From: Candidatus Poribacteria bacterium
GTDB taxonomy: Bacteria > Abyssobacteria > SURF-5
NCBI GenBank assembly: GCA_016215705.1
Contig: JACRIR010000238.1
Span: 1-49,455 of the forward strand
Length of the DNA stretch: 49,455 nucleotides
Reading direction: 5' to 3'
Below are positions 44,159 through 49,429 of this stretch, in pieces; within the stretch, counting starts at the first letter, position 1, and the number at the start of each line of letters is the position of its first letter. Position numbers and translations under genes: made by a program. The notes below the pieces were generated by a model. That model searched no databases. It was given only the letters and a program-made list of their open reading frames with translations, and was not told the origin of the DNA.

Positions 44159-44605
44159 ATGCTAAGAGAAATGCATCACACCGGCCTGAGCGTAAGGAAC
44201 ATGGAAAGATCACTTAAGCTTTACCGGGATACCCTCGGCATGGAAGTCGAGTGGGACCTCACGATCGAGGGCATTCCGCAATTCGGGACGATTATCGGTT
44301 TGCCGGGAGTGCGAGAGCGCATCGCGATGATGCGCTTGAGCAATTGCCGAATCGAGCTGTTTCAATTCTTCAAGCCGAAAGGCAAGAAGATACCGCGTCG
44401 TCAGTGCGATATCGGCTACATGCACGTGGCTATGGTGGTAGACGATCTCGACAGTATTTGCCGCAAGCTGAAGAAGCTGGGCTTGAAGTTCTACTCCAAA
44501 GCCGAAAACCTCGGCGTGTACAAAGTCGTATTCTTCAAGGGATTCGACGGCGAAACGATTGAGCTGATGATGCCCATGATAAGAGAGGCGAAAGGCAAAA
44601 GCTGA
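44159..44605 (+). CDS. VOC-superfamily (glyoxalase/dioxygenase-fold) protein
   Basis: A 148-residue two-module VOC protein. Probable metal ligands are H7 (EMHHTGLSV), Glu in CRIELFQF, His in GYMHVAMVV and Glu in GETIELMMP. Best fits are glyoxalase I-like lyase or methylmalonyl-CoA epimerase-like proteins; the pattern VRNMERSLKLYRDTLGMEV is general to the fold, so the reaction is open. ATG at 44159 with GGAGA 8 bases upstream. The last codons (REAKGKS) run into an AGGCGAAAGGCAAAAGC low-complexity tract. Confidence 0.8.
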   Translation: MLREMHHTGLSVRNMERSLKLYRDTLGMEVEWDLTIEGIPQFGTIIGLPGVRERIAMMRLSNCRIELFQFFKPKGKKIPRRQCDIGYMHVAMVVDDLDSICRKLKKLGLKFYSKAENLGVYKVVFFKGFDGETIELMMPMIREAKGKS

Positions 44606-44777: not shown

Positions 44778-46007
44778 ATGAAACTGACGGACGAACAGAA
44801 ACGGATGCTCGAAGGTGAGGACGGCCCCATCATCGGGATGGCAATGAACTATCTGGTCAAATACGGCGAGGCGATGGGGGCCGAAAAACTCATCCCTGTC
44901 GAAAACGTGCACACTGTCTTCACAATTCCCATGGAGAGCTCAGGCAGGGGCGAGGAGGTTGTAAACCTGCTGAAGATGTTCGGCCAACTGAGGGTGAAGG
45001 CAACAACGACAACCCACGTGGGTTTCATGGACTTCAAGAAATGGCGGGAGTTCGGAATCGATGAGCGCCGCTATGAGCTTCAGGCTTCGCTCGTGCCTGT
45101 GGCCGCGAGCGCAGGAATACAACTCACGTGGACTTGCGCGCCAGAGATCGTCGGCAACGCCCCGTTGAAGGGCCAGACCTGCGCGTGGATGGAATCGGCC
45201 GCAATCACGTATGCAAATGGAATACTTGGCGCCAGGACAAACCGCGAAGGGGCCGAATCGACCATGCCCGCAGCAGTCACGGGACTGATCCCCTGCTTCG
45301 GCAATCACATCACCGAGAACAGGCGCGGCACGATTCTCGTAGACGTCGAGGCGGATCTTGAGAATCTGTCGGATTGGGGGACGCTCGGCTACTACGGCGG
45401 CGACCATGCCGGCCTGGGCGTGCCGGTGTTCCGCACCCGCGATATCCCCACCCTCGAAGAAGCAAAGGAATTGTGCGCTGCATTGGCTACCGAAGGCGGC
45501 GTCGGCATGTTCCACATAGTGGGGATCACCCCCGAGGCGCCGACTGTGGAAGCGGCGTTTCAAGGGGGCATGCCTAAGAGCCGGCACACGTTCACCAACA
45601 AGGATAAGGAAACCGTATACAAGCGACTCAACATCTGCGCGTCGCCGGACGTGGATATCGTAATGATCGGATGCCCCCACGCGACTCTCACCGAGATAGT
45701 CGAGGTGGCGCACCTTGTCGAGGGCAAGAGAATCTCCCCGAATACTCAACTGTGGGTATGCACGACCCATTCGATCCGTTCGTATGCCGAGAAACTCGGC
45801 TACGACAAGATGATTGCGGACGCGGGCGGCAAGATAATGGCCGACACGTGCCCGTGCATCAGCCAGATAGAAATGGCCCGAAACAAGAGATATATGACGA
45901 ACTCGGTCAAGCAGGCATACTATGCGCCGGGGCAGCTTGGCGCACAGGTCCACTTTGCGAATACCCGCGACTGCATCGAGGCTGCGCTCAAAGGGAAGAG
46001 AGGCTGA
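44778..46007 (+). CDS. Aconitase X large subunit
   Basis: A 409-residue AcnX catalytic subunit: MKLTDEQKRMLEGEDGPIIG at the N-terminus, SSGRGEEVVNLLKMFGQLR, GQTCAWMESAAITYANGILG, GLIPCFGNHITENRRG, LGYYGGDHAGLGVPVF and MADTCPCIS. Known AcnX enzymes are cis-3-hydroxy-L-proline dehydratase (bacteria) and mevalonate 5-phosphate dehydratase (archaea), both Fe-S dependent. Which applies cannot be read from sequence; no mevalonate gene is in the window, and putA is about 30 kb away. GGAGG precedes the ATG; the small subunit follows after 6 bases. Confidence 0.88.
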   Translation: MKLTDEQKRMLEGEDGPIIGMAMNYLVKYGEAMGAEKLIPVENVHTVFTIPMESSGRGEEVVNLLKMFGQLRVKATTTTHVGFMDFKKWREFGIDERRYELQASLVPVAASAGIQLTWTCAPEIVGNAPLKGQTCAWMESAAITYANGILGARTNREGAESTMPAAVTGLIPCFGNHITENRRGTILVDVEADLENLSDWGTLGYYGGDHAGLGVPVFRTRDIPTLEEAKELCAALATEGGVGMFHIVGITPEAPTVEAAFQGGMPKSRHTFTNKDKETVYKRLNICASPDVDIVMIGCPHATLTEIVEVAHLVEGKRISPNTQLWVCTTHSIRSYAEKLGYDKMIADAGGKIMADTCPCISQIEMARNKRYMTNSVKQAYYAPGQLGAQVHFANTRDCIEAALKGKRG

Positions 46008-46013
46008 TGTGCC

Positions 46014-46439
46014 ATGACAAACAAGATCATAATAAGAGGCCGGAAAGTTGTTGGCGGGAAAGCTGAAGGCGAGGCACTCATAGCCGACGAGCGCGTGTCG
46101 TTCTGGGGAGGCACAGACCCAGTCCGCGGAATCGTCCACGAGGTCGGCAGCAAATTCGAGGGCAAGAGTTTCGCCGGAAAGGTGTTCATCTTCCGGTTCA
46201 CAAAAGGTTCATCGGGCACGTCGGCCTACATCAATATCGCGAGCAGGGAGGGTGTCGCCCCAGCGGCCATCATCAACACCGAGCTTGACTCGCTGTGCGT
46301 GCTCGGGTGCGCCATCTCAGATATTCCCATGATTACCGACCTGGACCAGGACCCGTTCCGCGTCATTGAAAATGGCGACTGGATCAAGCTCGATGCCGAC
46401 GCGGGTCTCATCGAAGTGACCAAACGGACTGCGGGTTAG
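46014..46439 (+). CDS. Aconitase X small subunit (DUF126 swivel domain)
   Basis: A 141-residue swivelling-domain subunit. IIIRGRKVVGGKAEGEALIA, SFWGGTDPVRGIVHEVGS, KGSSGTSAYINIASREGVAPAAIINTE and a C-terminal DGDWIKL-like region (ENGDWIKLDADAGLIEV) are the family pattern. It completes the active site of the large subunit. Six-base spacing with a Shine-Dalgarno GAGAGG inside the large-subunit end shows a two-gene operon. Confidence 0.9.
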   Translation: MTNKIIIRGRKVVGGKAEGEALIADERVSFWGGTDPVRGIVHEVGSKFEGKSFAGKVFIFRFTKGSSGTSAYINIASREGVAPAAIINTELDSLCVLGCAISDIPMITDLDQDPFRVIENGDWIKLDADAGLIEVTKRTAG

Positions 46440-46484: not shown

Positions 46485-46528
46485 AAAATCGGGGACACGA
46501 TGTGGTGGGGGCGCGATTCATCGCGCCC
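46485..46528. repeat. Half family 1 palindrome joined to a GGGCGCGAT/ATCGCGCCC palindrome
   Basis: AAAATC then GGGGACACGATGTGG (left half of family 1) runs directly into GGGCGCGAT-TC-ATCGCGCCC (46509-46528), a perfect palindrome of a different type. It lies in the gap between the AcnX small subunit and the fusion gene. Confidence 0.7.
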
Positions 46529-46631: not shown

Positions 46632-48740
46632 ATGGAATTCTTTTTCAACCCCAAAAGTGTCGCAATTGTCGGCGCATCTCGAAACCCCATCAAATTCGGA
46701 AGCATCATCCTTGCCAATCTGTTCGCCCTTGGCTACGAGGGCAAGATATTCCCCATTAACCCCAAGGGCAAAAATATCGCCGGCTTGAAAACTTATCCAT
46801 CGGTCAGAGATGTTCCCGACGAAGTCGACCTCGCGATTTTCGCAATCCCCGCCCCTGCCACGGTTGAAGCCATGCGAGACTGCGCGGAAAAGCGCGTCAA
46901 GGGAGTCGTCATAATCTCTTCCGGATTCAACGAGTCGGGAGAAGTCGGCGCGCGATTTCAGCGAGAACTGCTCGAGATCGCGCGCGGCGCCGGCATAAGG
47001 ATAATAGGCCCTAACACGACGGGTATCCTGAACCCTTACGACAATTTCACAACCACGTTTGTTCTTTTGAGAGAGGTGAGGAAAGGGCCAGTGGCTTTCA
47101 TAGCGCAAACCGGCATGTTCGCCGGAATGCTCATGGAATGGGTTCTATCGTCGGAGTGTTTCGGTATCAGCCGGGTTGTGGGTTTGGGCAACAAATGTGA
47201 CGTCGATGACGCCGATGTTTTGCGCTACCTCGCGGAGGATGACGCCACAAAAGTCATCATGATGTATATCGAGTCGGTCAAGGATGGCAGCCGTTTCATG
47301 GAAGCGGCGAGGGCAACGACTATCCGCAAGCCGATCATTGCGCTCAAGTCGGGCCGCACCGGCGAAGGCGCTGCCGCCGCCATGTCGCATACAGGCTCGC
47401 TCGCGGGGAATGACGACGTCGTGTCGGGCGCGTTCAAACAGGTTGGCATCGTGCGGGTTGACGCATTTCAGAAGCTCACCGACCATGCGAAGATGTTCGC
47501 GTATCAACCTGTCGCGCGCGGCAACCGGCTTGCAATCGTATCACTGTCCGGCGGGGCGGCAGTCATGTCGGCCGACGCTGCGATAAGAGCGGGCTTTCGG
47601 CTTGCGCATTTCCCCGATGAATCCATCGCCGGCATACAGAAGCATTATCCTTCGTGGGCCAAGGTAAGACACCCATTCGATATCGAGCCGCTGACCGAGA
47701 CCATTGGCTACGAACCCGCTTTCGACATGACCATACGATGCGCTCTCGGCAATCCGGAAACAGATGCTTGCATCGTTGTAATGTGGGCGCCGTTCCCCGA
47801 AGCCGGAATCTCATACGACTTCCTCAAGAACCTTCAGGCCGACTATCCCGACAAGCCGATGGCTTTCTGCTGCATCGGCTATAAAGAATACTATGAGGCG
47901 CTGTTCCGGCAGCTCGAATCCTACCAGATACCCGTCTACACGAGTTTCACGCGCGCGGTCGATTCGCTCGCAGCCTCCGCCAAATACGGGCAATACCTCA
48001 AGTCCATCGGAGCGGAAATGCCATGCCGTTCCACCAAAATCTCCATTCCCCCGCTTTCGGAAACCATCGAAGCTTGCTCCCCTCTTTCGCGGACGACCAA
48101 GACTTCGCCGACTCTTCTCGCAAAGGGCCGATACTTCTCGCCCCTTTCGCAGAGTACTGAAGCTTCTTCTACCCCTTCACAAAGGAACGAACCTTCTTCC
48201 CCCCCCTCACAAAGGACTGAAGCTTCTTCCCCCCTTTCGCAAAGGGGGGCTAGGGGGGATTTACCGGACAAATCCACCAGCTTGCCTGCCCGCGACAAAG
48301 AACCTCGCTCTTCTATTCCCGACGAGGATAAGTCTGCGGAAACGCCCAAGAAACTAACCATATTCATTGATGGAGCGTCCCACGGCAACCCCGGGCCGGC
48401 CGCCGTCGGAATCGTGATAAAAAGCTCGGGCAAGACAATTCGCGAGATCGGCGAAACCATTGGAAAAGCCACCAACAACTATGCCGAATACTCCGCCCTC
48501 ATCCGAGCCCTCGAGGAAGCCTGTAAACTCGGCGCATCCGAAGTGGATTGCTTTTCCGACAGCGAACTGCTCGTTCGCCAGATGACCGGCGTGTACAGCG
48601 TCAAGAGCAGGAATCTTCTTCCGCTCGTCAGCAAGGCCCAAACGCTTCGGCGCACTTTCAAGAAGTTCTCCCTCCACCACGTCGACCGCTCGAAGAACGA
48701 GCGCGCCGACGACCTCGCGGGCAAGGCCCTCAAGAAATAG
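46632..48740 (+). CDS. ADP-forming acyl-CoA synthetase alpha-like protein fused to RNase HI
   Basis: 702 residues. Residues 1-462 form the alpha part of NDP-forming acyl-CoA synthetases: CoA-binding fold (NPKSVAIVGASRNPIKFG, IIGPNTTGIL), phospho-His H253 (AAAAMSHTGSLAGNDDVV) and SLSGGAAVMSADAA. Residues 573-702 are an RNase HI with all four acidic residues: D580 (TIFIDGASHGNPGPA), E619 (TNNYAEYSAL), D643 (CFSDSELLVRQ) and D693 (NERADDLAG). Residues 463-572 are a Ser/Pro-rich linker of repeat origin. No ATP-grasp beta subunit is seen, so ligase activity needs a partner. RNase H would act on RNA in RNA-DNA hybrids. The join is unbroken in this read. Confidence 0.88.
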   Translation: MEFFFNPKSVAIVGASRNPIKFGSIILANLFALGYEGKIFPINPKGKNIAGLKTYPSVRDVPDEVDLAIFAIPAPATVEAMRDCAEKRVKGVVIISSGFNESGEVGARFQRELLEIARGAGIRIIGPNTTGILNPYDNFTTTFVLLREVRKGPVAFIAQTGMFAGMLMEWVLSSECFGISRVVGLGNKCDVDDADVLRYLAEDDATKVIMMYIESVKDGSRFMEAARATTIRKPIIALKSGRTGEGAAAAMSHTGSLAGNDDVVSGAFKQVGIVRVDAFQKLTDHAKMFAYQPVARGNRLAIVSLSGGAAVMSADAAIRAGFRLAHFPDESIAGIQKHYPSWAKVRHPFDIEPLTETIGYEPAFDMTIRCALGNPETDACIVVMWAPFPEAGISYDFLKNLQADYPDKPMAFCCIGYKEYYEALFRQLESYQIPVYTSFTRAVDSLAASAKYGQYLKSIGAEMPCRSTKISIPPLSETIEACSPLSRTTKTSPTLLAKGRYFSPLSQSTEASSTPSQRNEPSSPPSQRTEASSPLSQRGARGDLPDKSTSLPARDKEPRSSIPDEDKSAETPKKLTIFIDGASHGNPGPAAVGIVIKSSGKTIREIGETIGKATNNYAEYSALIRALEEACKLGASEVDCFSDSELLVRQMTGVYSVKSRNLLPLVSKAQTLRRTFKKFSLHHVDRSKNERADDLAGKALKK
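48060..48265 (+). repeat. 30-base tandem repeats forming the fusion linker
   Basis: Three clear 30-base units (48156-48245) encode TEASSTPSQR, NEPSSPPSQR and TEASSPLSQR, with looser copies upstream (ETIEACSPLSR, YFSPLSQS). The last runs into CTTTCGCAAAGGGGGGCTAG and GGGGGATTT, an inverted-repeat element encoding PLSQRGARGDL. The peptide is similar to the insertion in the gene at 27633. Confidence 0.8.
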
Positions 48741-48837: not shown

Positions 48838-48905
48838 GGTTTACGGTTCATGGTCTACAGCAACCGGTTTACGGTTTAGGGTCCACAGTTTACGGTTCAC
48901 GGTTC
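48838..48905 (+). repeat. Heptamer-like TTTACGG/TTCACGG repeat tract
   Basis: GGTTTACGGTTCATGGTCTA, then GGTTTACGGTTTAGGGTCCA, then GTTTACGGTTCACGGTTCGC: degenerate seven-base units, same type as 44637-44755 and 7758-7777. Telomere-like in appearance but short and degenerate. Confidence 0.6.
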
Positions 48906-49429
48906 GCGGTCAGGACAAGAGAGGGTTTGGGGTTCAAGGTTGGGTGAAGGCTGGAACACGAATGGGATACGAATGAAACGAATGAAGCTTCTTCATCCGC
49001 AGATTACGCAGATTTGCACAGATTCAGAGAAAAAGAAAAAAGAAGAGGGATCACGGATATGACGAATGGAACGAACTACACGAATCATCAACCGCAGAGG
49101 ACGCTGAGGAACGCGGAGGACTTATCTTTCTTGCTTTTTCCTCTGCGTTTTCGCTTTCTATCGCAAACGGAATGGCATTGTCAAATGCATACGCTTTTGC
49201 TCTTTTTGGACAAGATTTGCAGGATTATTTTTCCCAATCTTGTTCATCTTGTCAATCATGTCCATTCATTGCCTTCACAAACCGAGTTCCGGTTATCTTG
49301 CGAAAAGAGCGCCGTTGTGAATGTGTAGACCTGGTAATGTGAAAAAGCGGGCATCCAAGTGTTGCAGTTGGTATAAAATACGCAGTTAAGGTAAGAACAA
49401 ACCAACCAGTCAACGCAAGGAGGCCCGAG
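48906..49429. other. Repeat-rich noncoding region
   Basis: No convincing gene. Contains an ACGAATG-rich stretch (48957-48987), CCGCAGATTACGCAGATTTG (48997 on), ACCGCAGAGGACGCTGAGGA with ACGCGGAGG (49090-49119) and its partial inverse CCTCTGCGTTTTC (49140 on), and CAAGATTTGCAGGATT with AATCTTGTTCATCTTGTC (49210-49254). These look like several dispersed repeat families placed end to end. A 104-residue open frame through them is made of repeat translation and is rejected. Confidence 0.6.

Follow-up and report, generated by a model that had tools for sequence, protein, structure and literature searches.

The locus described here raises the question of how an acyl-CoA ligase alpha domain and an RNase HI domain came to share one polypeptide, and of whether the join matters to either of them. 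The window, meaning the whole stretch of 49,455 nucleotides that was analysed, is an entire contig of a 5.47-Mb MAG from Abyssobacteria, a little-known phylum of the subsurface of which we know no cultured member. Positions 46632-48740 of its forward strand form a single stop-free frame of 702 codons, which encodes a protein with a calculated mass of 76.2 kDa. The parts of this frame and the neighbours upstream of it are as follows.

44162-44605, forward strand: glyoxalase/VOC-family protein, conserved upstream neighbour (Pfam; synteny)
44778-46007, forward strand: AcnX large subunit, conserved upstream neighbour (Pfam AcnX, E 3e-126; synteny)
46014-46439, forward strand: AcnX small (swivel) subunit, conserved upstream neighbour (Pfam AcnX_swivel_put; synteny)
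46632-48005, forward strand: NDP-forming acyl-CoA synthetase alpha domain, residues 1-458, with phospho-His H253 (Pfam; PDB 2csu/4xyl; Foldseek 4xym)
48006-48350, forward strand: linker, residues 459-573 (comparison with two relatives; 469-569 predicted to be disordered)
48069-48262, forward strand: degenerate 30-bp tandem units within the linker, in frame, ten codons each, ending in a full palindromic repeat copy at 48229-48262
48351-48740, forward strand: RNase HI domain, residues 574-702, with D580, E619, D643 and D693, and the stop codon (Pfam, alignment, PDB/Foldseek)

The ORF scan and Pfam bore out the single frame, the alpha region with H253 and the complete RNase HI domain of the original prediction, and the active-site residues D580, E619, D643 and D693 were found where it had placed them; all four are invariant in the three genera compared below. 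Within the alpha half, Pfam places CoA_binding_2 at residues 8-134, Succ_CoA_lig at 151-289 (E 5e-51) and Ligase_CoA_2 at 302-441, and H253 lies within an SHTGS motif. Within the RNase half it places RVT_3 at 579-698 (E 7e-19) and RNase_H at 573-700, and all Pfam matches of the fusion protein exceed the curated cut-offs. Pfam found no His_Phos_1 domain in the fusion, which is not a member of the bifunctional RNase HI/CobC (Rv2228c) type. When the two halves were compared with the PDB by sequence, the alpha half matched 2csu (E 7e-91) and 4xyl (E 1e-83), and the RNase half matched 4e19, 3u3g and 3hst, the last of which is the RNase HI domain of Rv2228c. A ColabFold model of the whole protein (mean pLDDT 81.6) contains both folds as confident domains, with Foldseek matching the alpha half to 4xym (TMt 0.89) and the RNase half to 4e19 (TMt 0.94), while linker residues 469-569 have a pLDDT below 50 and are predicted to be disordered. 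The Pfam matches and the 4xym fold identify in the alpha half the CoA-binding and flavodoxin-like ligase domains of an alpha subunit, together with the phospho-His. The C-terminal half has the RNase HI fold with its D-E-D-D residues, and hybrid cleavage is its predicted function.

The comparison within the phylum covered three genomes from three genera, namely this MAG, SURF_17 (G002; matching contig QZKI01000003.1) and G001, which is probably SURF_5. The original prediction had allowed for relatives that consistently carry two separate genes, but in both of the other genera the fusion is a single ORF (625 and 633 aa; 68% and 71% identical to the window protein). The gene order glyoxalase, AcnX-large, AcnX-small, fusion is kept at all three loci, and the gap of 150-190 bp between AcnX-small and the fusion counts against taking a common transcript as established. 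A perfect hairpin with an 8-bp stem (GGGCGCGA-TTCA-TCGCGCCC) lies in this interval at window positions 46509-46528 and may separate transcripts. Among the three genomes dN is about 0.15-0.23 in both domains, with dS saturated or near-saturated (Nei-Gojobori), and residue identity in the linker is 21-33% among the genera; purifying selection acts on both domains and not on the linker. The three genomes share no internal start codon upstream of the RNase HI domain, and SURF_17 has no start codon at all from residue 440 to that domain, which makes it unlikely that the RNase half is translated separately. Each of the three genomes yielded one RNase HI match, the fused copy, and an RNase HII. Since the fused copy is the sole RNase HI found, no RNase HI paralog offers the cell a way round the tether. 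The fusion is most likely ancient and lineage-specific, predating the split of the three known Abyssobacteria genera.

The linker, in contrast, differs greatly among the genera, being 115 residues long in this MAG and 35 and 42 residues long in the two relatives. Tandem Repeats Finder reported 2.9 copies of a 30-bp unit at 48159-48245, and the period-30 self-identity over 48069-48263 was 0.51, as against 0.28 in codon shuffles (largest of 2000: 0.41); the claim of a repeat-derived linker built largely from 30-base units was therefore correct. The final unit, at 48229-48262, reproduces the dispersed palindromic element CCCCCCTTTNGNAAAGGGGGGNNAGGGGGGATTT without a mismatch. This repeat has 32 copies in the MAG (e.g. 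at L178, L184, L188, L194, L201) at three or fewer mismatches, compared with 0 for the reversed control. The majority of the copies are outside long frames and several are inside, and some of the in-frame ones are arrays of units of about ten residues. In a GT2 glycosyltransferase an array adds about 94 in-frame residues within the catalytic domain, a stretch that runs uninterrupted in the SURF_17 ortholog, and in a UvrD/PD-(D/E)XK helicase protein about 48 residues around the palindromic element are missing from the G001 ortholog. A search of plasmids for the linker DNA repeat found nothing. Directly downstream of the fusion gene, at window positions 48838-48910, there is a second short tandem repeat set (28 and 7 bp).

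It had been proposed that expanding repeats between two adjacent genes abolished a stop codon and so joined them, and the linker does consist largely of in-frame 30-bp units of a repeat that is otherwise mostly intergenic. This origin is not supported by the relatives, in which the fusion stands at the same locus with a short linker free of repeats, and we consider it very improbable; it could hold only if the repeats had been there ancestrally and both relatives had lost them. Because both relatives are fused in this way, and the linker repeats are confined to this MAG among the three genomes, the repeats most likely entered or expanded within a linker that this genus already had. The GT2 array, set against the continuous SURF_17 ortholog, indicates that in-frame insertion into existing genes is a habit of the repeat family; with the helicase insert, it makes the linker repeats a further insertion of this kind rather than what produced the fusion. 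A repeat-bearing linker on one MAG contig could raise the suspicion of an assembly chimera or a frameshift error, but the recurrence of the fusion in separate MAGs from two further genera leaves this explanation almost no probability. The reading that we favour, with a probability of roughly 0.6, is an ancient fusion of an alpha gene with a downstream RNase HI gene that gave two independently folding enzymes in one chain, joined by a mostly passive tether. The two genes would have become one before the three Abyssobacteria genera diverged. The alpha half and a beta (ATP-grasp) subunit whose gene lies elsewhere would together form an acyl-CoA synthetase, with the alpha half giving substrate specificity to a shared beta, and the substrate acid would be tied to the neighbouring AcnX/glyoxalase genes. 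The C-terminal half would be a housekeeping RNase HI carrying out ordinary RNA/DNA-hybrid removal. A mostly passive tether would account for the ability of one genus to gain about 70 extra repeat residues in frame with both halves retained.

No gene of the window contig matches ATP-grasp_5. The three Abyssobacteria genomes contain 8-17 ACD alpha matches apiece and each a single lone high-scoring beta gene, besides alpha-beta fusions, and beta-less alphas are more numerous than betas in all three. In Pyrococcus furiosus, any of five alphas combines with either of two betas, the acyl substrate specificity is set by alpha, and there are three extra alphas, the alpha and beta genes being not always linked (PMC3942289). 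The alpha half of the fusion scored 445 bits against the NCBIfam equivalog TIGR02717, below its cut-off of 567, and on this score it is homologous to the acetate-CoA ligase alpha but not certified as one. The fusions fall in a 17-row alpha clade (support 99/98) with stand-alone alphas of Dehalococcoidales and Bathyarchaeota type, their sister group being a Dehalococcoidales pair of about 50% identity, and no beta gene was found in the available flanks of the clade members. The score below the cut-off and the flanks of these closest relatives mean that acyl-CoA synthetase activity is not assured. The clade could instead consist of orphan alphas, with the alpha half acting as a beta-independent acyl-CoA-binding/transfer protein, as the thiolase-type gene upstream at four Bathyarchaeota-type alpha loci would also suggest. 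We regard this as possible but doubtful, given that the CoA-binding and ligase domains keep H253, many glycines and further residues unchanged in all the relatives compared, that lone betas are present in each Abyssobacteria genome and that elsewhere, as in P. furiosus, alpha and beta genes do not always lie together. It is also conceivable that the tether itself is functional, the alpha/CoA-binding half sensing CoA/acyl-CoA and tuning RNase HI, or holding it near a metabolic complex. Retention of the fusion in three of three genera, on the only RNase HI found, could mean that the cell benefits from the tether; in PatZ and DddX the alpha fold has been put to other activities, and the CobC domain of Rv2228c changes RNase activity in vitro, as quoted in PMC7466739. 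However, the linker varies threefold in length, has almost no sequence conservation and is predicted to be disordered. In MSMEG_4305, an RNase HI-CobC protein with a variable linker, the domains work separately in vivo, removal of the CobC domain barely changes RNase HI function in vivo, and the authors propose fixation by drift (PMC7466739). A functional tether thus seems rather unlikely to us, and the specific proposal that the alpha half is a CoA/acyl-CoA sensor regulating or localising the cell's only RNase HI, and so linking RNA/DNA-hybrid removal to carbon metabolism, is improbable. If it were true, RNase HI fusions to CobC-, IspF-, KdsA-, IMPDH- and ACD-alpha-type enzymes would amount to a general metabolic control of RNase HI.

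On the alpha side, a scan of GTDB 220 contigs with two 7-residue patterns gave 73 confirmed loci, among which RNase HI was attached to or near alpha in SURF_17 only. On the RNase HI side, 386 genomes across the domain were searched and part of the matches read; no ACD alpha occurred in the long RNase HI frames read beyond the three Abyssobacteria. Long frames with RNase HI elsewhere (L165-L174) proved to be other fusions or chance frames, none of them with an ACD alpha. An RNase_H_2 gene just downstream of a Dehalococcoidales alpha (L064) was considered as a candidate for the unfused ancestor and set aside: it belongs to another family of the RNase H superfamily, and it is missing beside the 81%-identical alpha in L065. 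The open-access literature held nothing on RNase HI fused with acyl-CoA synthetase, KdsA, IMPDH or IspF. The original prediction knew of no described protein with the present architecture, and none was found in the open-access literature or in the collections searched; the pairing of an acyl-CoA ligase alpha with RNase HI appears to be undescribed.

RNase HI of the same subtype was seen in one frame with YgbB/IspF, IMP dehydrogenase, a DAHP-synthetase-I family (KdsA-like) protein and a histidine phosphatase, in four unrelated genomes (L036, L165, L169, L173), so that fusion to metabolic enzymes is a recurrent habit. Another frame, of 469 codons (L024; G035:C34:9082-10344), contains three tandem RNase HI-like domains, and the latter two seem, judged by eye, to be catalytically degraded. 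Taken with the IspF, KdsA, IMPDH and histidine-phosphatase fusions, the Abyssobacteria protein makes it testable whether RNase HI is a promiscuous passenger or has repeatedly been put under metabolic partners.

Several known systems resemble parts of this protein. The linker records the in-frame insertion of a dispersed palindromic repeat into protein genes, a phenomenon best known from Rickettsia, whose palindromic elements are likewise dispersed palindromes that lie in frame in unrelated genes and add peptide with the frame intact (PMC10969869). The resemblance claimed is functional only: the linker family has another sequence, occurs in another phylum, and consists of a short GC-rich core and 30-bp tandem units in place of an element of about 150 bp. 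The ACD1-alpha of Ca. Korarchaeum (4xym) and the P. furiosus ACS alphas have, like the fusion, the complete alpha-subunit fold and the phospho-His, whereas the fusion differs from the alphas of ADP-forming acetyl-CoA synthetases in its extra C-terminal RNase HI, in a locus without beta and in falling under the TIGR02717 cut-off. ACD-fold modules are also reused in the protein acetyltransferase PatZ and the DMSP lyase DddX, which differ from the fusion in having no RNase H. Both retain the ATP-grasp part. The closest parallel to the join itself is the Rv2228c/MSMEG_4305/SCO2299 type of Actinobacteria, in which a metabolic enzyme of unrelated function is likewise joined, by a linker that varies, to RNase HI of the same subtype, and the join is fixed in one lineage; one of the solved structures nearest to our RNase half is the RNase HI domain of Rv2228c. 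In that type RNase HI is N-terminal and the partner a phosphatase, whereas in Abyssobacteria it is C-terminal and the partner an acyl-CoA ligase alpha; there is also a second RNase HI in M. smegmatis, but in Abyssobacteria the fused one was the only one found. The Abyssobacteria fusion adds a further well-supported example, seen throughout its lineage, of a housekeeping enzyme for nucleic acids that is tethered to a metabolic enzyme with an unrelated job.
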